NCBI GenBank assembly: GCA_022711635.1
Contig: JAKLEQ010000005.1
Span: forward strand, 1 to 38,703
Direction: 5' to 3'
Source of the DNA: Methanoregula sp.
Lineage (GTDB): Archaea > Halobacteriota > Methanomicrobia > Methanomicrobiales > Methanospirillaceae
DNA: 38,703 bases
Shown one piece after another: positions 10,496 through 38,703 of the stretch; the stretch's first letter is position 1; every line of letters starts with the position of its first letter. The notes beneath the pieces were generated by a model. That model was not told where the DNA came from and did not search any database. It saw only the letters and a program-made list of their open reading frames with translations. The translations under genes were made by a program, and so were the position numbers.

Positions 10496-13084
10496 ATGAA
10501 CTTCAACAACTTCACCATCAAGTCGCAGGAAGCCGTGCAGAAGGCGACGGAGATTGCGGCGGGAAAGCAGAACCAGGCCGTGGAACCGTCGCACATCCTG
10601 AAAGGGATGATCTCGGTCGACGAGAACGTGACCCCGTATCTCCTCCGGAAGCTGAACGTTGACCCCGCGGCGCTCGCCCCGGCGCTCGACCGGATAATCG
10701 ACGCGTACCCGAAGGTCTCGGGCGGGGAGCAGTTCCTCTCGGGCGGCGCGAACAAGGCCCTGCAGAAAGCGGTCGCCCTTGCGCAGGAGTCGCACGACGA
10801 GTTCGTCTCGATCGAGCACGTGCTTTTGGGGATCCTCGCGGCGGGGGACCCGGTTTCAAGGCTGCTGAAGGACTACGGGGTGACGGAGAAGGACTTAAGA
10901 GCCGCGATCGCCCAGCTTCGGAAGGGCTCGCCGGCCAAAAGCCCGACCGCGGAGGACACCTACCAGGCGCTGGAGCGGTTCGCCCGGAACCTGAACGAAC
11001 TTGCGAGGAGCGGCAAGCTCGACCCGGTCATCGGCCGGAACGAGGAGATCCGAAGGGTGCTGCAGATCCTCTCCCGGCGGACCAAGAACAACCCGATCCT
11101 GATCGGGGAGCCGGGGGTGGGCAAGACCGCGATCGCCGAGGGCCTCGCCCACCGGATCATCGACGGGGACGTGCCGGAGAACCTGAAAGAGAAACAGATC
11201 TACTCCCTCGACATGGGAGCGCTGATCGCCGGGGCAAAGTTCAAGGGGGAGTTTGAGGAAAGGCTCAAGAGCGTGATCAAGGAGGTCATCTCCGCGAACG
11301 GGGAGATCATCCTCTTCATCGACGAGATCCACACGCTGGTCGGGGCCGGCGCGAGCGAGGGCGCGATGGACGCGGCCAATATCCTGAAACCCGCTCTCTC
11401 CCGGGGCGAGCTGCACGTGATCGGCGCAACGACCCTGAAAGAGTACCAGAAGTACTTCGAGAAGGACAAGGCGCTCGAGCGCCGGTTCCAGCCGGTGATG
11501 GTTGCCGAGCCGGACACCCTTGACGCCATCTCCATCCTCCGGGGGATCAAGGAGAAGTACGAGACCCACCACCACGTCAGGATCAAGGACGAGGCGATCA
11601 TCGCCGCCGTCGAGCTCTCGCAGCGCTACATCTCCGATCGGTTCCTCCCCGACAAGGCCATCGACCTCATCGACGAGGCTGCCGCAAAACTCCGGCTCGA
11701 GATCAACTCCGTGCCCGAGGAACTGGAGACGATCGAACGGAAGATCCGGCAGCTGGAGATCGAGCGGGAGGCCATCAAGCGCGAGAAAGACCAGGGAAAA
11801 CTCAAGATCCTCAACGAGGAGATCGGGAACTTAACCGAGGAGCGGAACCGGCTCAAGGCCAAGTGGCAGTCGGAGAAGGACCTCGTCGAGCAGATCCAGG
11901 CAAAGAAGAACGAGATCGAGGACTTAAAGTTCGAGGCCGAACGGGCCGAACGGGGCGGCGACCTCGGGAAGGTTGCGGAGATCCGGTACGGCCGGATCCC
12001 CACCGCCGAGAAGACGATCGCGGGGCTGAAGGAGAAGCTGACCGTGCTGCAGAAGGACGCCGCGATGGTGAACGAGGAGGTGGACGCCGAGGAGATCGCC
12101 GAGGCGGTTGCGCGCTGGACCGGCATCCCCGTCTCCCGGATGCTCCAGAGCGAGAAGCAGAAGCTCCTCGGTCTCGAGGCCGAGCTCCACAAGCGGGTCG
12201 TCGGCCAGGACGAGGCGATCACGGCGGTTGCAGACGCGATCCGCCGGAGCCGGGCCGGGCTGCAGGACGCGAAGCGCCCGATCGGCTCCTTCATCTTCCT
12301 CGGGACGACCGGCGTCGGGAAGACCGAGCTTGCAAAAGCCCTCGCCGAGGTCCTCTTCAACAACGAGAACGCCATGGTCCGGATCGACATGTCGGAGTAT
12401 CAGGAACGGCACACCGTCTCCCGGATGGTCGGGGCTCCCCCGGGCTACGTGGGCTACGAGGAGAGCGGGCAGCTGACCGAGGCCGTGAGGCGGAAACCCT
12501 ACTCTGTTGTACTCCTGGACGAGATCGAGAAGGCGCATCCCGACGTCTTCAACATCCTCCTGCAGGTCCTCGACGACGGCCGCCTGACCGACAACAAGGG
12601 CAGGACGGTCGACTTCAAGAACACCATCGTGATCATGACCTCGAACATCGGGTCGCACCTCATCCAGGAGGCCCTCGGGCATGCCACCGACAAGGACCGG
12701 GACGCGATCTACGACAAGACGAGGGAGCAGGTCTTCGAGCTCTTAAAGAAGACCATCCGGCCCGAGTTCCTCAACCGTGTCGACGAGATCATCATGTTCC
12801 GGCCGCTCACCAGGGACGAGATCCAAAAGGTCGTCGCCCTCCAGATCGGGGTGGTGCAGAAGATGCTCGCAAAGTCCGAGATCCGGATCCGGGCAACCGA
12901 GAAGGCCGTACGGTTCATTGCCGATACGGGCTTCGACCCGCAGTTCGGCGCCCGGCCGATCAAACGGGTGATCCAGCGGAACCTGTTGAATGAACTCTCG
13001 AAGATGATCCTCGACGGGAAGGTCAACAAGGAGAAGGAGATCGTCGTCGACGAGAAAGGAGGGGCGCTGGTCTTCTCGAATTAG
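10496..13084 (+). CDS. clpB: ClpB/Hsp104 disaggregase
   Basis: A full-length 862-residue ATP-dependent disaggregase, the normal size for ClpB. The N-terminal double repeat (1-145), first AAA+ domain (Walker A GEPGVGKT 204-211, Walker B D276-E277 in LFIDEIH), coiled-coil M domain (about 400-525, rich in Glu/Lys) and second AAA+ domain (GTTGVGKT 603-610, D675-E676 in [10 protein letters not shown]) are all present, as are GYVGYEE and the sensor-2 motif GARPIKR. The second Walker A reads GTTGVGKT where bacterial ClpB usually has GPTGVGKT. ClpB pulls aggregated proteins apart, usually with DnaK; no dnaK is nearby. In archaea the gene is patchy and thought to come from bacteria. Confidence 0.98.
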
Positions 13085-13598: not shown

Positions 13599-14075
13599 AT
13601 GAACGAACCCCGCGATCCCCAGACCGAGGACTGGATCACCAGCCTGCACGAGGCGGCGCATGTTGTCTTTGCGGTGCTGGCCGGCCGCCGGGTGCAATGG
13701 GTGACCATCGATGCAGTCGTCGTTACCACCCCCGGCGGGGGCCTCGGGGTCTGCCTCGGGCGCTGGGATACCGCGGACAGCCGGCCGGCGGCCGGGTGGG
13801 GGACCGGAGAATGGCACCGGCACATCCAGGTACTTATCGCCGGGTACCTGATGGAATACCTGGTGACCGGGGAAAAGAACGGCATGGATGACGAAACGGC
13901 CGCCCTCCGCTGCTGCACGGAGGCCGGGCTCGACCTTGCCGCCATCGAACGGGAAACCATCGCCCTGATCGGGGAACGGACGGACCGGATTTACCGGTTG
14001 GCACGGATGCTGCGGGAACACCGGACCCTGGACGAGGCCCGGATCCTGGAGGCGGTAGTCCCGCAACCGTCATAA
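13599..14075 (+). CDS. Stand-alone M41/FtsH-like zinc peptidase domain
   Basis: A 158-residue protein that looks like an FtsH protease domain without the AAA+ or membrane parts. The zinc motif HEAAH (residues 17-21) sits in a helix SLHEAAHVVFAVLAG, as in the FtsH HEAGH helix; a VTIDAVVVTTPGGGLGVCLG strand and then LIAGYLMEYLVTGEKNGMDDETAALRC follow. The acidic MDDE would supply the third zinc ligand that FtsH provides from its downstream aspartate. Such small M41-like proteins are widespread and uncharacterised; they may be proteases or inactive. A hairpin terminator follows directly. The start has only a weak Shine-Dalgarno. Confidence 0.75.
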   Translation: MNEPRDPQTEDWITSLHEAAHVVFAVLAGRRVQWVTIDAVVVTTPGGGLGVCLGRWDTADSRPAAGWGTGEWHRHIQVLIAGYLMEYLVTGEKNGMDDETAALRCCTEAGLDLAAIERETIALIGERTDRIYRLARMLREHRTLDEARILEAVVPQPS

Positions 14076-14176: not shown

Positions 14177-15736
14177 TCAGCAGCCGTCGCCGAACCGGTA
14201 TCCTCCTTTCGGCACGCGGATCGCGAAACGGACCCCCTCCCCCATCGTCCCGGTCTCCCGGATCGTGATATCGGTCGTCTCCAGGATCTCCCGTGCGAGG
14301 AAGAGTCCCATCGATCGGTCTTTCTGGAAATCCGGCGAAAAGATCGTATCCTTGTCGGCAGGAGGGATGCCGCCACCATTGTCGGCATAGAGAATGGTGA
14401 GGGATTCATCGGGTTGCTTCACGTACTCCAGGGTGACCCGTGTCCCGGGGGTATTCCGGGCAAGCGTGTTTTCTGCAAGGACGTAAAAGACGTTCTCCAG
14501 CAGGGGGTCGGCAAAAATCTCGAGGTCCCTGACCGTGACCGTCCGCTGGATCTTCTCGAAGGAAAGGTGGGAAATCGCGAGAAGGAAGACCTGGTTGACA
14601 TTCTGCCATCGCGCCGGTTTAAACCCGAGGTCCTGGTAGGTCTGGGAGAATTTCAGGGAATCGGAGATCTTCTGCAGGACGCAGTTCTCCTTCTCGATCA
14701 GCTCTTTTGCCCGAACTGACCCGTCATTCGTCAATTCCGCCCCGGCCAGCTGCAGGTACCCGAGCGCGGTAAAAACCTGGTTCCGGATGTCCGTACTCGT
14801 CAGGCGGTTCAGGAAACTGAGTTTCTCCTTGGCGCGGTTGAGCGCCTTCTGCGTCTTCTTGTACTCGGTGATATCGATGGCCGTAAAGACGATGCCCGCT
14901 GCCGGGTCCGCGGGATCGATCGATGTCCCGTTGAGGAGAATGTCCTGGACGGCACCGTCTTTCCGCCGCCACCGCGTCTCTGTCGCCGACGGAGATCCTT
15001 CCAGGCGGGCATATTCCTGGTCGTCCAGGAAGAGGAACCGGGCGTTCTTTCCGGTGAGTTCTTCCTGGGAATATCCGGTGATTTCGCAGAGCCGGTCGTT
15101 GATTCGGATCAGGGCCTGGTCCGACACAAACGCTATCCCTATCGGTGCAACGCGGAAGATGCCCGAGATCGAGGCCTCGTTCTTGCAGATCCGCTGGGTA
15201 TTCCGTTCCAGTTCGTCGTACTGCTGCTGCAGGACCCCTTCCGCGGCTGCAATCTGCTGGTAGGCGGCCCAGAGCTCTTCCTCGGCAAGCTTGGTCTCGG
15301 TGATATCGATGACAACCCCGATCAGGCGGCGGGGCCGCCCGGACGCGTCCCGCTCCACCGCCCTGCCACGGGTGCGGTACCATTTCCAGGCCTCTTTGGC
15401 CGTCCGGATCCGCACAACCGTCTCAAAAACCTCTGATGCGCCTTCGAGATAGTGCCGGAGGTTCGCCATAAGGAGCACCATATCGTCGGGATGGACGAAC
15501 GCGGCGAGTGCCATCAGGGTTGCGGGTCTTTTCTCCGGGGGGTACCCCAGGAGGGCGATGAACCGGTCGCCGAAATGAAAACCGCCGGTCTCGAGATCGG
15601 CCTCCCAGACATCCGCCTTCGCTTCCTCGAGAGCAATGGCGAGCTGCTGGTTGGTGAGCTCCAGAAAATTTTCCCAGTCCTCCTTGCTGTCGGCGGAGGG
15701 GATGAGAGCTTCCGGGGCCAGGACCTCACCGGTCAT
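14177..15736 (-). CDS. PAS-domain sensor kinase without phospho-acceptor histidine
   Basis: A 519-residue soluble sensor protein: PAS domain 1 (about 30-150, GFHFGDRFIALLGYPPEKR and IDITETK), a coiled coil (about 148-185), PAS domain 2 (about 188-300) and a kinase-like core. Where related kinases have TRHDI, this one has T313-S314-T315-D316, so the phosphorylated histidine is replaced by T315. The ATPase part keeps DNGGGIP (G1) and MGLFLAREIL (G2), while the N box reads ENTLARN. It can probably bind ATP but not autophosphorylate on the usual residue. The start at 15736 follows GGGGTG; GTG at 15745 is the alternative. It is divergent from a similar gene at 16140, with no response regulator beside it. 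Confidence 0.9.
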   Translation of the reverse strand: MTGEVLAPEALIPSADSKEDWENFLELTNQQLAIALEEAKADVWEADLETGGFHFGDRFIALLGYPPEKRPATLMALAAFVHPDDMVLLMANLRHYLEGASEVFETVVRIRTAKEAWKWYRTRGRAVERDASGRPRRLIGVVIDITETKLAEEELWAAYQQIAAAEGVLQQQYDELERNTQRICKNEASISGIFRVAPIGIAFVSDQALIRINDRLCEITGYSQEELTGKNARFLFLDDQEYARLEGSPSATETRWRRKDGAVQDILLNGTSIDPADPAAGIVFTAIDITEYKKTQKALNRAKEKLSFLNRLTSTDIRNQVFTALGYLQLAGAELTNDGSVRAKELIEKENCVLQKISDSLKFSQTYQDLGFKPARWQNVNQVFLLAISHLSFEKIQRTVTVRDLEIFADPLLENVFYVLAENTLARNTPGTRVTLEYVKQPDESLTILYADNGGGIPPADKDTIFSPDFQKDRSMGLFLAREILETTDITIRETGTMGEGVRFAIRVPKGGYRFGDGC

Positions 15737-16139
15737 ACCCGGCACCCCGCAGCATCAGAAAGATTTGCATGGCTCTCCGTAGACGGTACAAGACGTTTTT
15801 TCCCCTTAAAAAGGAACGGACACGCCTTGCAGATATGGCATGCAAACGGCGCCCGGGATGTTTCCCGTCCCCCCTTTTCTCCCGCACCGCATCCTCCCGG
15901 CGTCCGGCAGGTGCAAAGACGTGGAAAAAATGCGCGGACCGGCAGGGTTGACGGACGCAGCCGGGTACATCACGCGCGGGGAAAAACACAGGAGACCGTG
16001 GAAACGATCCCTCCTGACCAGAGAAGCAAGGGGGAACATCCAAAAGAATAATAAATCAGGCACGATACCACTCAACAACCTGAACGGGTGCCGTGGTGCC
16101 CCGGACTGCCGGGAAGGATCCCGGGTCAGGAGTATGGTT
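15737..16139. promoter_or_regulatory. Shared intergenic region of the two divergent kinase-like genes
   Basis: About 400 bp with no convincing gene. CTTTTTAAG on the minus strand (15805-15813) can be the TATA box of the left gene, with a leader of about 50 nt. GAATAATAAAT (16046-16056) can be the TATA box of the right gene, with a leader of about 60 nt. Confidence 0.45.
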
Positions 16140-18209
16140 ATGATCGTGCCAGCCGGGAAGGACAACCGGGAACTGTATCTGAAGGGGGCCCTTCTCGTTC
16201 TCATTATCGCGATCCTTTTCACCGGGCTCTGTTCTCCCGCCGCAGCAGACCGGGACGTACGAGTCGCCCTCACCGATCTCAAGCCTACCCTGTACACGGA
16301 TGATACAGGAAAACCGGCGGGGTTTTTCGTCGACATCATCAACGATGTCGCTGCCCGGCAGGGCTGGAATGTCACCTGGGTCCGCGGATCGCTCGCCGAG
16401 AGCTGGGACCGCCTCAAGACCGGCGAGATCGACCTCCTGCCCGGTGTCGCCAGCACACCGGAGCGCCAGAGCCTCTATGATTTCAGCAACGAGTCGGCGC
16501 TCGCCGTCTGGTCGCAGGTGTACGCCCGCCCCGGGTCCGGCATCAGCACGATCCTTGACCTCGACGGTAAACGGGTGGCATCTGTTAAGGGGGCGCAGAG
16601 CGGGATCGGATTCCGGGATTATGCGCAAAAGTTCGGTGTCAACATCACGCTGATCGAAAAAGATACTCCGGCCGCCATGTTCTCTGCAACGGCGTCCGGG
16701 GAGGCGGATGCCCTGGTGGTGTACAACACGGCAGCCCAGGCGGATGCCCGGACGTACGGCCTTGCAGCGACGCCCGTAATGTTCAATCCCACCCAGTTCG
16801 GGTTTGCCGTGCCGAAAGGAAAGAACCACGACCTCATCGCACCTCTCGACCAGTACGTCGCCGAAGGGAAGGCAGACCCCTCCTCGACCTACAGCCGGGC
16901 GATGCAGACATGGTTCGGGGTCCAGGCAAACCCGGTCATCCCGTCATGGATTGCCTGGGGCCTTGCCGGGGCAGCGTGCGTTGCCCTCCTCTTTGTTGCG
17001 ATGAGTTTGATCCTCCGGCGGGAGGTCCGCAGGAAGACCACGGAACTGTCGCGCCGGAACGAAGAACTGCAGTCCGAGATTGCCCACCGGAAACGGGCGG
17101 AGGACGAGCTCGCCGATGAGATGTCCCGGCGCGAGGTCCTCATCGACCAGTCGCGGGACGGGATTGTCATCCTGGACCAGGAGGGGCAGGTCTACGATAC
17201 CAACCGGAAGTTTGCGGAGATGCTCGGGTACTCCCGCGAAGAGATGCAGCAGCTGCATGTCTGGGACTGGGATGTCCAATTCGACCGGGAACAGCTGCAG
17301 GAGATGATCCGCACCATCGATGCAGAGGGAGCGTTTTTCGCGTCCCGCCACCGCAGGAAGGACGGGAGCATCATAGACGTTGAGATCAGCACCAATGCCG
17401 CGGTATTCTCCCGCGAGAAGCTGATATTCTGTGTCACCCGGGATACCAGCGAACGGAAGAAGGCGGAAGAGCAGCTCAGGACCATGAATGCCAGCCTGCA
17501 GACAGAGGTAGCGAGCCGCATTCGGGCCGAGCAGGAACTGCGGAAGAGCGAGCAGGCTCTCCTCCAGGCACGGAAGAAACTGAACCTTCTGAACACCCTC
17601 ACGTTCCAGGACATCCAGAGCGGGATCTTCACCCTGGCAAGTTACCTCCAGATCGCCGAAACAGCCGGCTGCAGCGACGCGGCACGGGCAAGCCTGGAGA
17701 AAGGGGAGGCCGTCCTCCACTCCGTCGGAAAATCCCTGGACCTGGCGAAAAAGTACCAGGGCCTGGGCATGAACCCGCCCCGCTGGCAGAACGTCAATAT
17801 GGTGCTGCTCAATGCCCTCTCCCACATCGATTATTCCGGGATCACCCGGATCGGCTCCTTTGACACCCTCGAGATCTTCGCCGACCCCCTGCTCGAGGAC
17901 GCCTTCCGGACCATCATGGAATACCTCCTGGTGCTGGGAGGAGGGAAGACGGCGGTCAGGTTCGAATACCGGGAGGTGGATGACCGCATCATCCTTGTTA
18001 TCGAGGATACGGGCCCGGGTATTCCGGTGCCGGAGAAAGAAGGGATATTCACGAGGGAATCCGCGGGAACGGACCGGGCAAGCCTCTTCCTGGTGCGGGA
18101 GATCCTCTCGATTACGGGCATGACGATCCGGGAGACCGGCACCCCGGGTACGGGGACCCGGTTTGAGATTACGGTGCCAAAAGAGGAATACCGGTTCAGG
18201 GATAACTGA
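16140..18209 (+). CDS. Membrane sensor: solute-binding domain + PAS + degenerate histidine kinase core
   Basis: A 689-residue transmembrane sensor. A signal/anchor helix (about 13-37) precedes an outside solute-binding domain of the SBP_bac_3 type (about 38-262: VALTDLKPTLYTDD, GEIDLLPGVASTPER, GEADALVVYN), then a membrane helix (about 270-293), coiled coil, PAS domain (about 328-438) and a kinase-like core. The histidine of the usual TRHDI is Q490 (LTFQDI). The N box has lost its asparagine (MEYLLVLGG) and the G2 box reads RASLFLVREIL without the glycine, so this core is more decayed than its neighbour. Signalling by autophosphorylation is unlikely. ATG 16140 follows AGGAG with 7-nt spacing; ATG 16134 is too close. 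Confidence 0.9.
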   Translation: MIVPAGKDNRELYLKGALLVLIIAILFTGLCSPAAADRDVRVALTDLKPTLYTDDTGKPAGFFVDIINDVAARQGWNVTWVRGSLAESWDRLKTGEIDLLPGVASTPERQSLYDFSNESALAVWSQVYARPGSGISTILDLDGKRVASVKGAQSGIGFRDYAQKFGVNITLIEKDTPAAMFSATASGEADALVVYNTAAQADARTYGLAATPVMFNPTQFGFAVPKGKNHDLIAPLDQYVAEGKADPSSTYSRAMQTWFGVQANPVIPSWIAWGLAGAACVALLFVAMSLILRREVRRKTTELSRRNEELQSEIAHRKRAEDELADEMSRREVLIDQSRDGIVILDQEGQVYDTNRKFAEMLGYSREEMQQLHVWDWDVQFDREQLQEMIRTIDAEGAFFASRHRRKDGSIIDVEISTNAAVFSREKLIFCVTRDTSERKKAEEQLRTMNASLQTEVASRIRAEQELRKSEQALLQARKKLNLLNTLTFQDIQSGIFTLASYLQIAETAGCSDAARASLEKGEAVLHSVGKSLDLAKKYQGLGMNPPRWQNVNMVLLNALSHIDYSGITRIGSFDTLEIFADPLLEDAFRTIMEYLLVLGGGKTAVRFEYREVDDRIILVIEDTGPGIPVPEKEGIFTRESAGTDRASLFLVREILSITGMTIRETGTPGTGTRFEITVPKEEYRFRDN

Positions 18210-22475: not shown

Positions 22476-24122
22476 TCAGTATTCGCCCATGCCGGGGGGC
22501 ATTCCGCCCATCCCCCCCATGCCACCGGGGGGCACGGCCGGGCCCGGTGCCTTCGAGGAGGCAATCATGTCGTCGATTCGCAGGATCATAACGGCTGCCT
22601 CCGTCGCGCTGGCAACCGCCTGTTTCTTGACCCGGAGCGGTTCGAGGACCCCGGCCGTCGGCATGTCAGCGGGTTTTCCGGTCCTGACGTCAAGCCCTGC
22701 ATTGGCCTCTCCCCGCTCGTGGGCAGCCTTGAGGGCGACAACCGCATCGATGGGGTCGAGGCCCGAGTTCTCCGCGATGGTCCGGGGGATGACCGTAAAG
22801 GCCGCGGCGAATGCCTCGATCACCGGCTGCCGGCGGCCTCCCTGCGTCAGGGCATAGTCGCGCAGCCGGAGGGCGATCTCCACCTCGGGGGCCCCGCCGC
22901 CCGCGACCATCCTGCCGTCCTCGAGCACGTCTTTGATGACCATGAGCCCGTCATGGACCGACCGTTCGAGCTCGTCGATCACATGCTGGGACCCGCCCCG
23001 GATGAGGATCGTGACAGCCCGGGGGTTCCTGCAGCCGGAGACGGCGATCATCTCTTCGCCGGCAACCTTCTTCTCGGCAACAAGGCCGGCGCCCCCGATA
23101 TCCCCGGCTGCGATGGCTTCGGGGCTGCTGACAACCGTTGCGCCGGTCGCCCGGGCAAGGTTCTCCATATCGCTCTTCTTCACCCGGCGCACGGCAAGGA
23201 TTCCGGCTTTCGCCAGGTACTGGGCCACGGTATCGTCGATCCCCTTCTGGCAGAAGAGGACGGTTGCCCCGGATGCTATGACCGTGTCCGCCATGGCGCG
23301 GACCATGTGCGCTTCCTTGTCGAGGAACGCCTGCGCCTGCTGTGTGCCGGTGATCGTGATCTTTGCATTCACCTCCGTCTTCCGGAACTCGAGGGCCGCG
23401 TTTAAGAGAAGGACCTTTGCGTCCTTTACAACCCTGGGCATCGAGGGGTGCAGCCGCTCCTTGTCAACGACGACCCCGTCGACCATGACGGAGTCCTCCA
23501 CCGCGCCCCCGGCCTTTTTGACAACCGTGATATGTCCGATGTCAACCTTCCCGTCCGGGTCAGCGACCATGGCCGCCGCTTTGACCATGAACCCGCAGAA
23601 CGTCTCCTTGGCCGGTTCCGACAGACGGCTCGTAAACGCGGTCCCTGCGATCTTCCGGAGCACGTCCTCGTCGCCGGGCCGGGCGCGAAGGGCGATAGCA
23701 GCAAGGACCTCCTGCGCCTGCCCTGCCGCCTGCCGGTACCCTTCGGCGATGACCGTCGGGTGGATCTTCTTTGCGATCAGCCCTTCAGCCGCCTTTAACA
23801 GTTCCCCGGCGAGCACGACTGCCGTCGTCGTCCCGTCCCCGGTTTCGTCGTCCTGGGTCTTTGCCACCTCGACGATCATCTTTGCGGCCGGGTGCTCGAT
23901 GTCCAGCTCTTTGAGGATCGTCGCGCCATCGTTGGTGATAACGACATCCCCGAGGCTGTCAACGAGCATCTTGTCCATCCCGTGCGGTCCCAGCGTTGAG
24001 CGGACGGCGCCGGCGATCGCCTTTGCCGCTGCAAAATTCGATGACCGCGCCTCCTCGTCCCTGCTCCGTTTCGCCCCTTCCCGCAGGATCAGGACCGGCT
24101 GTCCTCCCAGTTGCTGTGCCAT
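22476..24122 (-). CDS. Thermosome subunit (group II chaperonin)
   Basis: A 548-residue subunit of the archaeal chaperonin, the two-ring ATP-driven folding chamber of the cytoplasm. The nucleotide motifs are intact: LGPHGMDKM (44-52), NDGATIL (64-70), GDGTTT (95-100) and GGGAPEVEIALRL in the second equatorial half. The apical part carries VVDKERLHPSMP. It ends in the Gly/Met-rich tail GGMGGMGGMPPGMGEY typical of thermosomes. The start at 24122 follows AAGGGG. Archaeal genomes usually have one to five such subunits; whether this is the main or a secondary one cannot be told here. It is divergent from the DUF389 gene. Confidence 0.97.
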   Translation of the reverse strand: MAQQLGGQPVLILREGAKRSRDEEARSSNFAAAKAIAGAVRSTLGPHGMDKMLVDSLGDVVITNDGATILKELDIEHPAAKMIVEVAKTQDDETGDGTTTAVVLAGELLKAAEGLIAKKIHPTVIAEGYRQAAGQAQEVLAAIALRARPGDEDVLRKIAGTAFTSRLSEPAKETFCGFMVKAAAMVADPDGKVDIGHITVVKKAGGAVEDSVMVDGVVVDKERLHPSMPRVVKDAKVLLLNAALEFRKTEVNAKITITGTQQAQAFLDKEAHMVRAMADTVIASGATVLFCQKGIDDTVAQYLAKAGILAVRRVKKSDMENLARATGATVVSSPEAIAAGDIGGAGLVAEKKVAGEEMIAVSGCRNPRAVTILIRGGSQHVIDELERSVHDGLMVIKDVLEDGRMVAGGGAPEVEIALRLRDYALTQGGRRQPVIEAFAAAFTVIPRTIAENSGLDPIDAVVALKAAHERGEANAGLDVRTGKPADMPTAGVLEPLRVKKQAVASATEAAVMILRIDDMIASSKAPGPAVPPGGMGGMGGMPPGMGEY

Positions 24123-24297
24123 CTGACGCCCCTTTTCTTTTGGAGATATGGGTGCAATCGGCAGCAGGGATAATAAAAGTAGGTGCCGGTGCACCGGGCG
24201 GGAACGGGGGCCCGGATCGGCCGGATGCAACGGAAGACCGCGATCGGGTCCTTCCGGGGGAGTGGATGGCCGAAATACCCGGCTCGCAGGATCAACA

Positions 24298-28370: not shown

Positions 28371-28877
28371 TCAGGTATCCCCGGGTATCGGTTCCTCTGT
28401 CGCCTCGTTCGTCTCCTCCCAAAGCCACACCATCCGGTCGAGGAACCAGAGTTTCCCGGCATAGACGAGTGCCATACCAAACATGGCTGGCCAAAAGTCG
28501 AACGCAAAAACCCCCCAGAAGACAAACAGCATGCCGGTACCGGAGACGAGGGAAAGGATGATCGGGACGGTCCGGTGGTGAACCGGTATGGCCACGACAT
28601 CCCGGTTCAGCCAGACCCGTTCTCCGAGCACTGCCTTCGATGCCCAGTGATCGAACGACGCCGGTGGCGGAAAGATGCGGGGATTGTACCATGTCCAGAG
28701 GAGGGCAAGAGCAACCGGGACAAGGGCGTACCAATGCAGCCAGAGCCGGCTCCAGAACGCGAGGACAAGGATGGGCAGCACGGTCGTGCGCAGGATCACG
28801 CTCCACGGGTTGGCATGGCGCAGCCACGTTGTGTCGTCGAGCGAAAAGGCCCGGGCAATCGTCCGCTCCAGGGTCAT
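28371..28877 (-). CDS. DUF6653-like membrane protein
   Basis: A 168-residue membrane protein of a family I recall as DUF6653 (name from memory). It opens MTLERTIARAFSLDDTTW, continues RHANPWSVILR, then helices rich in L, V and W (about 30-63), the conserved block ERVWLNRDVVAIPVHHRTVP, and two more helices ending KLWFLDRMVWLWEE. Four hydrophobic segments are likely. Function is unknown. The ATG at 28877 was preferred to 28892 because a TATA-like TACTATTAAG (28901-28910 on this strand) predicts transcription starting just before it. It converges with the sensor-module gene. Confidence 0.85.
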   Translation of the reverse strand: MTLERTIARAFSLDDTTWLRHANPWSVILRTTVLPILVLAFWSRLWLHWYALVPVALALLWTWYNPRIFPPPASFDHWASKAVLGERVWLNRDVVAIPVHHRTVPIILSLVSGTGMLFVFWGVFAFDFWPAMFGMALVYAGKLWFLDRMVWLWEETNEATEEPIPGDT

Positions 28878-28956
28878 TGAGTACCGGTGCATTTTATTCG
28901 CTTAATAGTATCATGGTAGGAAGACGGCATCGTCGGCAACGGTAAGCCACAAGACA

Positions 28957-35715: not shown

Positions 35716-36858
35716 TTATCCATTACCCGGGGAAGATCCCCGCTCCAGCGTGCGGAGGGCATCCTCAAACGACGCTTCCCAGCGGTCCATCGTTGCGACA
35801 CCGTCCTGGATTTTTTTCACGTTCGATGCCGGTTCAAGCCGGAAATACAGGAGCGGCCTGTCCTGCGCCGCCACCTTCTTCCACGTGAACAGCCCGGAGC
35901 TCTCTGACACGTACGAACGGTACTCCTTCCCGACCCAGTCAATCTCGGCAGAGAGGGTGCGGACCATTTTCTGCAGTGCCGGGTCGTCCCTGGATGGGCC
36001 CGCTCTGAACCTGCGCTCGGCGCGCCCTGCCCTCTCCTGGTATGTCCCGTGGCGGATGATCGTTTCGTAGAATTCCCGGAACCGTATGAGCGCCGGGGCT
36101 GCAAGGGTCACGAGTTGTCGCTTCCGGTGGAACGCATCGGCGCCCGCCTCGAGATATCGCTGGTAATTCCCCTTCAGGACCTCCCGGACCCAGACCGGCA
36201 GGGAGAGCGACGGGTTATTCGTCGTAAAGAGCGTCCGGCTCTTTGCAGAGAGGCCGACACTCCGGATCCCCCGGGGGATGAAGATGTGGTTCTCCGGACC
36301 TGTCGAAAAAAGCGACGGGTCAATGTACGGGACCGATGCCGGAGACCGGCCGTCTTCTCCCGCAAGGAAGGAATCGTACCATGCGGTAAAATCCCTCGAT
36401 TTCCCCAGGAAATTATCCAGCAGCCAGTACGATTCGATCCCGAGAACCCGGTATTTCCTGTCCCTTTCTTCCAGCTCCTCCGGGGTGATGGCGCTTACCT
36501 GGACCTCGAAGACAACCTTCCTGCCGTCACGGACCGCGTACACGTCCGAGATCCAGGCCCGGTCCGGGGAGGGAAATTCGACGGAGGTCTCCCAGTTTTC
36601 TGACTGGCAGGTCTGGTAGATCTTGTATTTGATCTCCAGGTGCTCTTTCGACTCCTCTGCATAACGGCACCCGGAATCAGGTGCATGATAGAAGTGCCGC
36701 GTCCCTTTTCCAGAGGTCCGCAGGTGTCCCGGTGCCCCGCAGCAGGCCATCGTTACCGTGAGTCCTTTCTTGTGACGCAGCTGCAGGCCTGCCCATTCCT
36801 CATCGGAGAGGTCAGGGGCAATGACCGTCTCCCCGTCAACAACTGCCTTCAGGGGCAA
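35716..36858 (-). CDS. CoiA-like nuclease protein
   Basis: A 380-residue protein whose first 150 residues match the CoiA-like family: an opening MPLKAVVDGE, a zinc-knuckle-like CCGAPGHLRTSGKGTRHFYH (39-58) and then a PD-(D/E)xK-type core with EESKEHLEIK (68-77), D105 in WISDVYAV and E118-x-Q120 in FEVQVS, followed by DRKYRVLGIESYWLLD. The C-terminal 200 residues are helical and unrecognised. CoiA acts in bacterial competence; archaeal homologues are unstudied. AGGAGG stands exactly 7 nt before TTG at 36858, the best start; ATG 36915 has no such signal. The TTG lies 23 nt inside recQ, so the two are coupled. Confidence 0.85.
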   Translation of the reverse strand: MPLKAVVDGETVIAPDLSDEEWAGLQLRHKKGLTVTMACCGAPGHLRTSGKGTRHFYHAPDSGCRYAEESKEHLEIKYKIYQTCQSENWETSVEFPSPDRAWISDVYAVRDGRKVVFEVQVSAITPEELEERDRKYRVLGIESYWLLDNFLGKSRDFTAWYDSFLAGEDGRSPASVPYIDPSLFSTGPENHIFIPRGIRSVGLSAKSRTLFTTNNPSLSLPVWVREVLKGNYQRYLEAGADAFHRKRQLVTLAAPALIRFREFYETIIRHGTYQERAGRAERRFRAGPSRDDPALQKMVRTLSAEIDWVGKEYRSYVSESSGLFTWKKVAAQDRPLLYFRLEPASNVKKIQDGVATMDRWEASFEDALRTLERGSSPGNG

Positions 36859-38703
36859 AAGGGATCCTCCTGGGGGTACCGGTATACTCCTGACCGGAAT
36901 TTTTTCCGCCTGCATGGAACATGCCGCCGGAACAGGATGCATCCCCGCCCCCCCTGCCCTTGGACCAGGCCCGGATTGCATTGGTAAAGACCGGCCCGTA
37001 CTTCTCCCGCTTGAACGCACCGACACCGGCGATCGTACCGAAGCCCTCCAGGTCACACGGAAGGGCCCGGGCCATCTCCCGCAGGCTCTTGTCCGGGAAG
37101 ATGACGTACGGGGGGACATTGTTTTGGTCTGCGATGGTTTTGCGCAGGGCGCGAAGGCGGAGGAACATCGCCTCTTCTCCGCTGGTTGTGCCGGCAGGTC
37201 CCGCGGCCGGGGTACGCTTCGGTGCATTTCCCTCCGGTACCGAAAGCATGACCCGGGTCGTGCCGTCAAGGACGCTCCTGCCCTTTTCGGTGAGCCGGAT
37301 GACCGGGTACCGGTCCCCCGCCCGTTCCAGGAAGCCCTGCCGGACCAGCTCGTTCACCCATGTCCGGCACTGCTGCTTCGTGATGCCACCGCCGGCATTG
37401 AATGACGGGAGGGAGGGAAAGCCGTACCTCCGGACCTTCAGGGTCTTTGCGCCGGTCAGGACGTCGGTGATCAGCCCGGTCCCGAACTCCGACGGCAGGT
37501 CCTGTACGCAGCGGAGGATCGCCTTTGCGATCTCGGTCCCGTCGGCACGTTCCCGGGGGTTGTCGCAGTTGTCGCAGGAGGCGCAGTTCCCGCCGGGATA
37601 CTCCTCGCCGAAATACCCGAGCAGGAACCTCCTCCGGCAGGCCGCGGATTCGCAGTACTCCGCCATCCCGTTGAGCTTCTTTACCGCGAGGCGCACGCTG
37701 CGTTCGTCCGAACCGTCGCTCGTGAGAAGGGACCTGACCCTGAACACATCCATCCGGCTGTAGAAGAGGATGCACTCGGACGGCTGGCCGTCCCGCCCTG
37801 CCCGGCCCGTCTCCTGGTAGTAGGACTCGATGGATTTGGGGATATCGAAGTGGATGACGTACCGGACATCGGGCTTGTCGATGCCCATGCCGAACGCCAC
37901 CGTTGCGCAGACGACCTTCACGGTGTCATGGATGAAGTCGTCCTGCACCTTCTCCCGGACAGGCTTCGAGAGCCCGGCATGGTAGGCGAGCGCGGAGAAC
38001 CCCCGCGCCCGCAGGTCAGCGGCGATCTCTTCGGTCTCCTTCTTGCTGAGGCAGTAGACGATCCCGGCATCGTTCCGGTGCTGCCCGATATAGCCGGCAA
38101 GCATCACCGCGGGGTTCTTCTTCTGCACGACCCGGTAGGTGAGGTTCTTCCGGTTGAAGCTCCCGACGAACTCCCGGGCCGTGGAAAGCCCGAGCTGCTC
38201 CCGGATATCCCGCCGCACCGCAGGGACCGCCGTTGCCGTCAGGGCAATGACCGGGACGGCGGGAAAATTCTTCTTCAGGACAGCAAGCGACCGGTATTCC
38301 GGCCGGAAGTCATGGCCCCACTCGGAGATGCAGTGAGCCTCGTCGATAGCGATGAGCCGGACCGGGAGCGTTCCGAGGGTTGCGAGGAACGGTGCCTGCA
38401 TGCACTTCTCCGGTGAAACGAACAGGAGACGGAGGGTGCCGTTCGTAAGACTCTTCTCAATCATCTCCCGCTCGCGGTATTCCAGCGAACTGTTGTACGC
38501 CGCTGCCGGGATCCCCCGGGCGTTCAGGTCGTCGACCTGGTCCTTCATCAGCGAGATGAGGGGCGATATTACGAGCGTGAGTCCGCCGAGGCAGAGCGCG
38601 GGCAGCTGGTAACAGAGCGATTTTCCCCCGCCGGTTGCCATGATGGCGACCACATCCTGCCCCGAGAGGACGGATTCGATGATCGCTCGCTGGTGGGGCA
38701 GAA
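36836..38703 (-). CDS. recQ: RecQ DNA helicase (5' end outside window)
   Basis: An ATP-dependent 3'-5' DNA helicase, 622 codons visible; the first part is beyond the right edge, where the frame remains open (PHQRAIIESVLSGQ). Walker A TGGGKSLCYQ, the DEAH box IAIDEAHCISEWGHDFRPEY, the helicase C-terminal motif QETGRAGRDGQPS, the zinc-binding cysteines (CESAACRRRF and CASCDNC), the RQC winged helix (about VRRYGFPSLPSF to RLTEKG) and an HRDC domain (LRALRKTIADQNN to FGTIAGVGAFK) are all present, so this is a complete RecQ type rather than a short paralogue. The last 40 residues are Gly/Ser-rich. It is followed by, and overlaps, the CoiA-like gene. Confidence 0.96.
   Translation of the reverse strand, partial: LPHQRAIIESVLSGQDVVAIMATGGGKSLCYQLPALCLGGLTLVISPLISLMKDQVDDLNARGIPAAAYNSSLEYREREMIEKSLTNGTLRLLFVSPEKCMQAPFLATLGTLPVRLIAIDEAHCISEWGHDFRPEYRSLAVLKKNFPAVPVIALTATAVPAVRRDIREQLGLSTAREFVGSFNRKNLTYRVVQKKNPAVMLAGYIGQHRNDAGIVYCLSKKETEEIAADLRARGFSALAYHAGLSKPVREKVQDDFIHDTVKVVCATVAFGMGIDKPDVRYVIHFDIPKSIESYYQETGRAGRDGQPSECILFYSRMDVFRVRSLLTSDGSDERSVRLAVKKLNGMAEYCESAACRRRFLLGYFGEEYPGGNCASCDNCDNPRERADGTEIAKAILRCVQDLPSEFGTGLITDVLTGAKTLKVRRYGFPSLPSFNAGGGITKQQCRTWVNELVRQGFLERAGDRYPVIRLTEKGRSVLDGTTRVMLSVPEGNAPKRTPAAGPAGTTSGEEAMFLRLRALRKTIADQNNVPPYVIFPDKSLREMARALPCDLEGFGTIAGVGAFKREKYGPVFTNAIRAWSKGRGGGDASCSGGMFHAGGKNSGQEYTGTPRRIPFAPEGSC

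Follow-up and report, generated by a model that had tools for sequence, protein, structure and literature searches.

We have described here two divergent genes from a methanogenic archaeon whose products resemble sensor histidine kinases but have no histidine at the usual phospho-acceptor position. They lie in the 38,703 nt of contig JAKLEQ010000005.1 (GCA_022711635.1, a Methanoregula sp. draft genome of 1.86 Mb and 77% completeness), and we refer to this whole stretch of DNA as the window and to the two genes and products as left and right. Judged from their sequences, both are receptors of one lineage-specific transmitter family derived from HisKA/HATPase kinases in the Methanomicrobiales. 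We call this family FSH, a name coined here for a phenylalanine seven residues beyond the acceptor site (site+7) and a Ser-His dyad. Sequence comparisons show that absence of the usual acceptor histidine is an old and maintained condition of the family, which has conserved residues of its own. Purifying selection and these fixed residues together indicate a specialized family, and we propose, with less than even confidence, that FSH sensors may dephosphorylate or sequester shared response regulators that are charged by His-bearing paralogues.

Both open reading frames (ORFs) are intact, and the C-terminal cores of about 225 residues, which comprise a dimerization and histidine phosphotransfer (DHp) hairpin and a catalytic and ATP-binding (CA) domain, are 44% identical to each other over 223 residues. 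An initial annotation, made from the DNA sequence alone, had assigned both cores to the type found in HisKA/HATPase kinases of methanogens and had noted the missing acceptor, and both observations hold: each core contains a Pfam HATPase_c domain, and His-bearing paralogues have TRHD(I/V) in the alignment columns where the left protein has Thr315 and the right protein Gln490. A conserved histidine displaced to elsewhere in the dimerization helix was found in neither protein; the left protein has no histidine across the 110-residue stretch covering the dimerization helices, and the sole histidine in the same stretch of the right protein, H527, lies away from the acceptor site. An AlphaFold2 model of the left core consists of a DHp hairpin followed by HATPase_c, with a fold that matches HK853, ZraS, and CpxA. 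The earlier description of the ATP sites is correct only in part. The left protein retains the N-box Asn and, as claimed, G1, but its G2 box is not intact, the first glycine being gone (DRSMGLFL, versus TGxGLFL in His-bearing kinases). The right protein has indeed lost the N-box Asn, which is replaced by Tyr, but it has also lost both G2 glycines and not one (DRASLFL). G1 (DxGxG) is intact in both proteins.

Phylogenetic placement was examined with 216 distinct cores drawn from the window's own genome, 40 relatives, a scan of GTDB contigs in which the named relatives are Methanoregula, Methanolinea, Methanospirillum, and one Methanoculleus, and near-complete sets from two further genomes; the choice of queries enriches this sample for the FSH clade. 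In a maximum-likelihood tree computed with the acceptor-site column left out and rooted by midpoint, the smallest clade to contain both the left and the right protein comprises 85 cores, every one without the acceptor histidine (Shimodaira-Hasegawa-like approximate likelihood ratio test, SH-aLRT, 90). The next nodes outward add the remaining His-lacking members with the same signature, and a node of 101 cores on a long stem (SH-aLRT 93) contains 99 without the histidine and two with it. Two independent losses in the left and right genes, as the initial annotation had supposed, are ruled out because both genes descend from this one clade. The residue at the site varies widely among the 85 members (Q47, T13, N9, D5, E4, and others), and it is the non-His state that is fixed (85/85) rather than the Thr or Gln of the window proteins. 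Chance or sequencing error is excluded because Gln is present at the site in 47 of the 85.

Several other positions are strongly constrained within this clade. Site+1 is Asp or Glu in 84 of 85 members, site+4 is Asn, Ser, or Thr in all (N56, S17, T12), and Phe+7 is invariant, whereas Thr occupies that position in 61 of 108 His-bearing cores. A Ser-His dyad is present at core positions 97–98 in every member, where His-bearing cores have scattered residues. Across all 216 cores, 100 that lack the histidine contain both Phe+7 and the dyad and eight contain neither, and among the His-bearing cores 104 contain neither, two Phe+7 only, and two both. In the three broadly surveyed genomes (95 cores), the dyad is present in ten cores without the acceptor histidine and absent from seven, and it is absent from all 78 His-bearing cores. 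Thirteen further relatives, fetched later with the left core, all lack the histidine and contain the dyad, although at least two depart from Phe+7. Both window proteins have Phe+7, the dyad, a non-His site, and a place within the clade. The non-His state is not peculiar to them, because nine of the 34 cores that cover the site in their own genome lack the histidine and 25 have it (there are about 36 cores of this type in total); six of the 34 full-length cores are FSH proteins.

Some unusual cores lie at or beyond the edges of this family. Two with the FSH signature have histidine at the site (L046:1495-3171, TSHDIQN; L143:4224-5984, TRHDINN), which either was kept from an ancestor or arose again from Gln or Asn by a one-base change. 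A second small lineage without the histidine, with TYQDIQNK or AYQDIQNK and neither Phe+7 nor the dyad, is found in three genomes (L016:8516-9565, which is C134 of the own genome, L092:7803-9005, and L188:283-2178; SH-aLRT 99), and its sequences mark it as a separate loss of the acceptor. Three cores with SADH(L/I), in which Asp is at the site and His is one residue on (L176:1015-2883, L202:739-2664, and L219:3-1193), could be another loss or have a shifted acceptor.

The ATP site is mostly retained in the 85-member clade, with the N-box Asn present in 76, the G1 Asp in 78, the G1 glycines in 84–85, the G2 Gly in 70, and the N-box Asn and DxGxG together in 73. The ATP-lid Thr behaves differently and is present in 97 of 108 His-bearing cores but in only 12 of the 85. 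The left protein follows the clade pattern with a partly eroded G2. FSH genes are under purifying selection and are maintained: comparison of the right gene with L068, its best full-length match (63% identity), gives a nonsynonymous rate (dN) of 0.27 and a synonymous rate (dS) of 1.07, and with L067 values of 0.31 and 1.09, corresponding to dN/dS of about 0.25–0.28, and close pairs within the clade have dN/dS of about 0.1–0.35. Decay of kinase function, which the initial annotation placed at the center, is therefore not the main point. A profile of 14 FSH cores with a cut-off of E 1e-76 matches 70 of 232 genomes in the order Methanomicrobiales and 18 of its 40 genera, with up to eight copies in each genome, mostly within the window's own family and mainly in Methanoregula, Methanolinea, and Methanospirillum. 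A search at class level spanned no more than this order. A phylum-wide search yielded no match from beyond the order that scored like most FSH members (best out-of-order E 6e-70), at a threshold that admits His-bearing cores too and with the out-of-order matches not sorted into types.

The extracellular sensor domains are distributed unevenly. SBP_bac_3 ectodomains are present with 29 of the 100 FSH cores that lack the histidine, and with one of 108 His-bearing cores, where the match is short and partial. All six SBP-bearing cores in the three surveyed genomes lack the acceptor histidine; in the own genome, three SBP_bac_3 proteins besides the right one (C138, C132, and C146) are without it. 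The SBP domain of the right protein is related to amino-acid binding proteins, and in 29 of 30 SBP domains the Arg that corresponds to the carboxylate-binding residue is present, the remaining one having a gap. A residue that is usually Asp is Phe or Tyr in 19 of the 30 and Tyr in the right protein. From their roles in amino-acid binding proteins, we take the Arg to bind the ligand carboxylate and the Asp to bind the amino group.

Genomic context connects the family to other signaling genes. We considered 67 FSH loci of at least 6 kb, not counting the window. A further core or a receiver gene lies no more than 3 kb away at 34 of them, and at 13 such a gene is on the same strand and less than about 100 bp off; for core genes only, 26 loci have a neighbor inside the 3 kb limit, in several cases overlapping. 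With the window included, a neighboring core is present at 27 of 69 FSH loci, and for two reference genomes the figure is nine of 67 cores (Fisher p about 0.001), a comparison that uses hand-entered counts and slightly different distance rules and is hence only suggestive. The order kinase, receiver, and then a gene with receiver (REC), PAS, and FSH parts forms an operon at two Methanolinea loci (L099:2802-6678 and L114:2792-6675), with a similar order in Methanoculleus FWC-SCC1 (L122:2484-6663), and in all three the first gene is a HATPase-bearing kinase-like gene. L133 and L102 encode some of the nearest relatives of the left protein, and at both loci a REC-PAS-FSH gene overlaps a His-bearing TRHDI kinase; the left protein itself has no REC domain. 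These arrangements do not support the earlier view of the window genes as a unit. The left-type relatives L133 and L102 are in line with His-bearing kinases and not opposite an SBP protein, no left-like gene is present beside L067, L068, or L072, to which the right protein is most closely related, and a conserved divergent pair was not seen among these relatives. As to the suggestion that the two proteins act by binding to one another or to some third kinase, either is possible, but a third partner is favored because relatives are linked to His-bearing kinases and receiver genes.

Myxococcus CrdS offers a functional parallel, as its phosphatase activity scarcely depends on the acceptor histidine. 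The half-life of CrdA~P is 53.5 min without kinase, 0.7 min with wild type CrdS, and 2.6 min with a mutant lacking the acceptor histidine, but 47.6 min with a mutant of the Asn at site+4, which is essential for phosphatase activity (PMC3510030). The FSH clade parallels this situation in that the acceptor is gone and site+4 is held as Asn, Ser, or Thr. In EnvZ, T250, L254, and A255 (positions +7, +11, and +12) govern the choice of regulator (PMC2991266), and these docking positions are more uniform in FSH proteins than in His-bearing paralogues, as those of a family devoted to a single class of regulator should be. Phe+7 had already drawn attention before this comparison, which involves five positions chosen partly on general knowledge, such that its p value is not clean. 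The CrdS parallel and the uniform docking positions together lead us to propose that ligand controls how shared regulators are dephosphorylated or docked. The DHp hairpin would still dock receiver domains, and the ligand, either a carboxylate-bearing solute outside the cell or a PAS signal inside it, would set the strength of dephosphorylation or sequestration, so that FSH proteins would erase or tune phosphorylation in a shared pool. The left protein is plausibly the better phosphatase candidate because it has Asn at site+4 and keeps most of the ATP-site residues. The right protein, with Ser at site+4 and a broken ATP site, is for those reasons more like Caulobacter DivL and may instead bind a phosphorylated regulator or contact a kinase.

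Several considerations weigh against this proposal. We found no biochemistry on any FSH member in the open-access literature, and a search of the window for a receiver domain or response regulator found none, as the initial annotation had also reported. The acid at site+1 is kept without evident need, although CrdS requires it for kinase activity only (PMC3510030). Ser is present at site+4 in 17 of the 85 clade members, including the right protein, and the CrdS mutants do not extend to this residue. DivL, a kinase homologue without the histidine, has no phosphatase activity at all (PMC4211667), and the phosphatase activity of PleC depends on its histidine (PMC3510030). The conserved docking positions could also serve dimer or CA contacts instead.

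A real possibility, if a somewhat doubtful one, is that FSH proteins are pseudokinases with neither kinase nor phosphatase activity, which act allosterically through a phosphorylated regulator or in a complex with a His-bearing kinase. There are published precedents, in that DivL binds DivK~P without either activity (PMC4211667), RocA works through CovS (PMC7380576), and the ChrS pseudokinase heterodimerizes with HrrS (PMC9491836), and the nearby and sometimes overlapping core genes at 26 of 67 loci, together with the loss of ATP-site residues in some members such as the right protein, are consistent with this. However, a pure scaffold has no need of the ATP-site residues and the site+4 Asn, Ser, or Thr, which are mostly kept. 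A second model has the ATP-bound CA domain of the FSH partner phosphorylating the histidine of a His-bearing partner within a mixed dimer. Although retention of the N-box Asn and DxGxG in 73 of 85 members and operonic linkage to TRHDI kinases at several loci are compatible with such a trans-kinase, we consider it unlikely in view of the scarcity of the ATP-lid Thr, the eroded G2 glycines, the missing N-box Asn of the right protein, and the majority of FSH members that have no adjoining kinase. It is very improbable that the acceptor has moved to the dyad His, notwithstanding its presence in the 100 sampled FSH cores and 13 later relatives and the absence of the dyad from 106 of 108 His-bearing cores, since in the AlphaFold2 model the dyad lies in the CA domain and not on the receiver-docking DHp helix, two His-bearing members also contain it, and the ATP-lid residues are degraded; we give equally little credence to a new type of transmitter in which the dyad His is the functional phospho-site or has a catalytic part. 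Relaxed, decaying paralogues without function are the least credible explanation, given the intact ORFs, the dN/dS values of the right gene, the residues fixed across genera, and the occurrence in no fewer than 70 of 232 genomes, although a few members lacking the histidine elsewhere in the tree (e.g. L201) are without several motifs at once.

Bacteria provide isolated examples of inactive or His-lacking kinase homologues. DivL, which has Tyr550 at the acceptor site, resembles the FSH proteins in its HisKA/HATPase fold with PAS domains, its replaced histidine, and its retained DHp docking face, but it is reported to have no phosphatase activity and to bind ATP weakly (PMC4211667). The FSH family, with more than 100 archaeal members sampled, is marked by the Phe and Ser-His signature; its ATP-site residues are for the most part intact, and SBP ectodomains are frequent. 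RocA of group A Streptococcus and the laboratory-evolved ChrS are likewise derived from kinases and exert their effect through an active paralogue (PMC7380576, PMC9491836), but these are single bacterial genes with known partners and do not form a lineage-wide family. Galperin et al. (2018) described archaeal 'HisKA, no HATPase' proteins of the Methanomicrobia as non-enzymatic kinase-like proteins with a suggested phosphatase activity, although these have the opposite defect, retaining the histidine without HATPase, whereas FSH proteins retain HATPase without the histidine (PMC5847659). We found no published description of the FSH family in the open-access literature. The TRHDI PAS kinases of the own genome (25/34 cores) share the core type and DHp-CA order, with about 30–38% identity to the right protein, but keep the histidine, N-box, G2, and ATP-lid Thr and lack Phe+7 and the dyad. 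Subfamily II ethylene receptors of plants also have kinase-like transmitters without the canonical histidine and work with His-bearing relatives; they are eukaryotic with an unrelated ectodomain.

The features of the two genes are listed in the table. Pfam matches agree with the domain layouts in the initial annotation, namely two PAS domains in the left protein and a solute-binding ectodomain in the right.

Table. Features of the left and right genes (window coordinates; pLDDT, predicted local distance difference test; pTM, predicted template modeling score)
Feature	Position	Strand	Remarks
Left protein	14177..15736	-	ATG start, 519 aa; predicted cytosolic PAS-PAS-HisKA-like DHp-HATPase; Thr replaces acceptor His
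PAS_3 domain, left	15311..15568	-	Pfam E 1.6e-22
PAS_9 domain, left	14864..15139	-	Pfam E 7.6e-11
Transmitter core (DHp + CA), left	14186..14875	-	AlphaFold2 pLDDT 87.7, pTM 0.80
T315 codon (ACG), phospho-acceptor position, left	14792..14794	-	
Asn at site+4, left	14780..14782	-	Position needed for phosphatase activity in HisKA kinases
Phe at site+7, left	14771..14773	-	Clade-specific
Ser-His dyad, left	14567..14572	-	Invariant in His-lacking clade; directly past first CA helix
HATPase_c domain, left	14207..14500	-	Pfam E 3.5e-9; N-box Asn and G1 DxGxG kept, first G2 Gly gone
Right protein	16140..18209	+	ATG at 16140; 689 aa from the next ATG at 16146, 689-691 aa overall; signal/transmembrane-SBP_bac_3-transmembrane-PAS-HisKA-like DHp-HATPase; Gln replaces acceptor His
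SBP_bac_3 extracellular solute-binding domain, right	16272..16919	+	Pfam E 4.6e-18; ligand-carboxylate Arg kept
Predicted transmembrane helix after SBP domain, right	16959..17015	+	Hydropathy
PAS_9 domain, right	17157..17453	+	Pfam E 7.4e-11
Transmitter core (DHp + CA), right	17532..18203	+	HATPase_c, Pfam E 6.6e-9
Q490 codon (CAG), phospho-acceptor position, right	17607..17609	+	Numbering of the initial annotation
Ser at site+4, right	17619..17621	+	
Phe at site+7, right	17628..17630	+	Clade-specific
Ser-His dyad, right	17820..17825	+	Invariant
Tyr in place of N-box Asn, right	17922..17924	+	

A short ORF adjoining the left gene (13599-14075) has a weak Peptidase_M50B-like match that is below the cut-off (E 6e-4). 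The pair is distantly flanked by genes for a ClpB-type AAA+ chaperone (10496-13084) and a TCP-1/cpn60 thermosome subunit (22476-24230), with no evident functional link. Elsewhere in the window are a DUF6653 protein (28371-28892), a CoiA-nuclease-like protein (35716-37269), and a RecQ helicase-like ORF (36836-38653).

The Methanomicrobia are rich in histidine kinases, and a single Methanospirillum can have as many as 133 two-component proteins (PMC5847659). With a conserved family lacking the acceptor histidine among them, kinase counts and annotations give too high a figure for phosphate donors. Operons of the type seen at L099, L114, and L122 would be well suited to functional study. Where this core type is joined to an SBP_bac_3 receptor in the three surveyed genomes, the transmitter is always one without the usual acceptor, and if FSH proteins are phosphatases, then extracellular signals would be read by the removal of phosphate rather than by its addition, the reverse of the textbook scheme.

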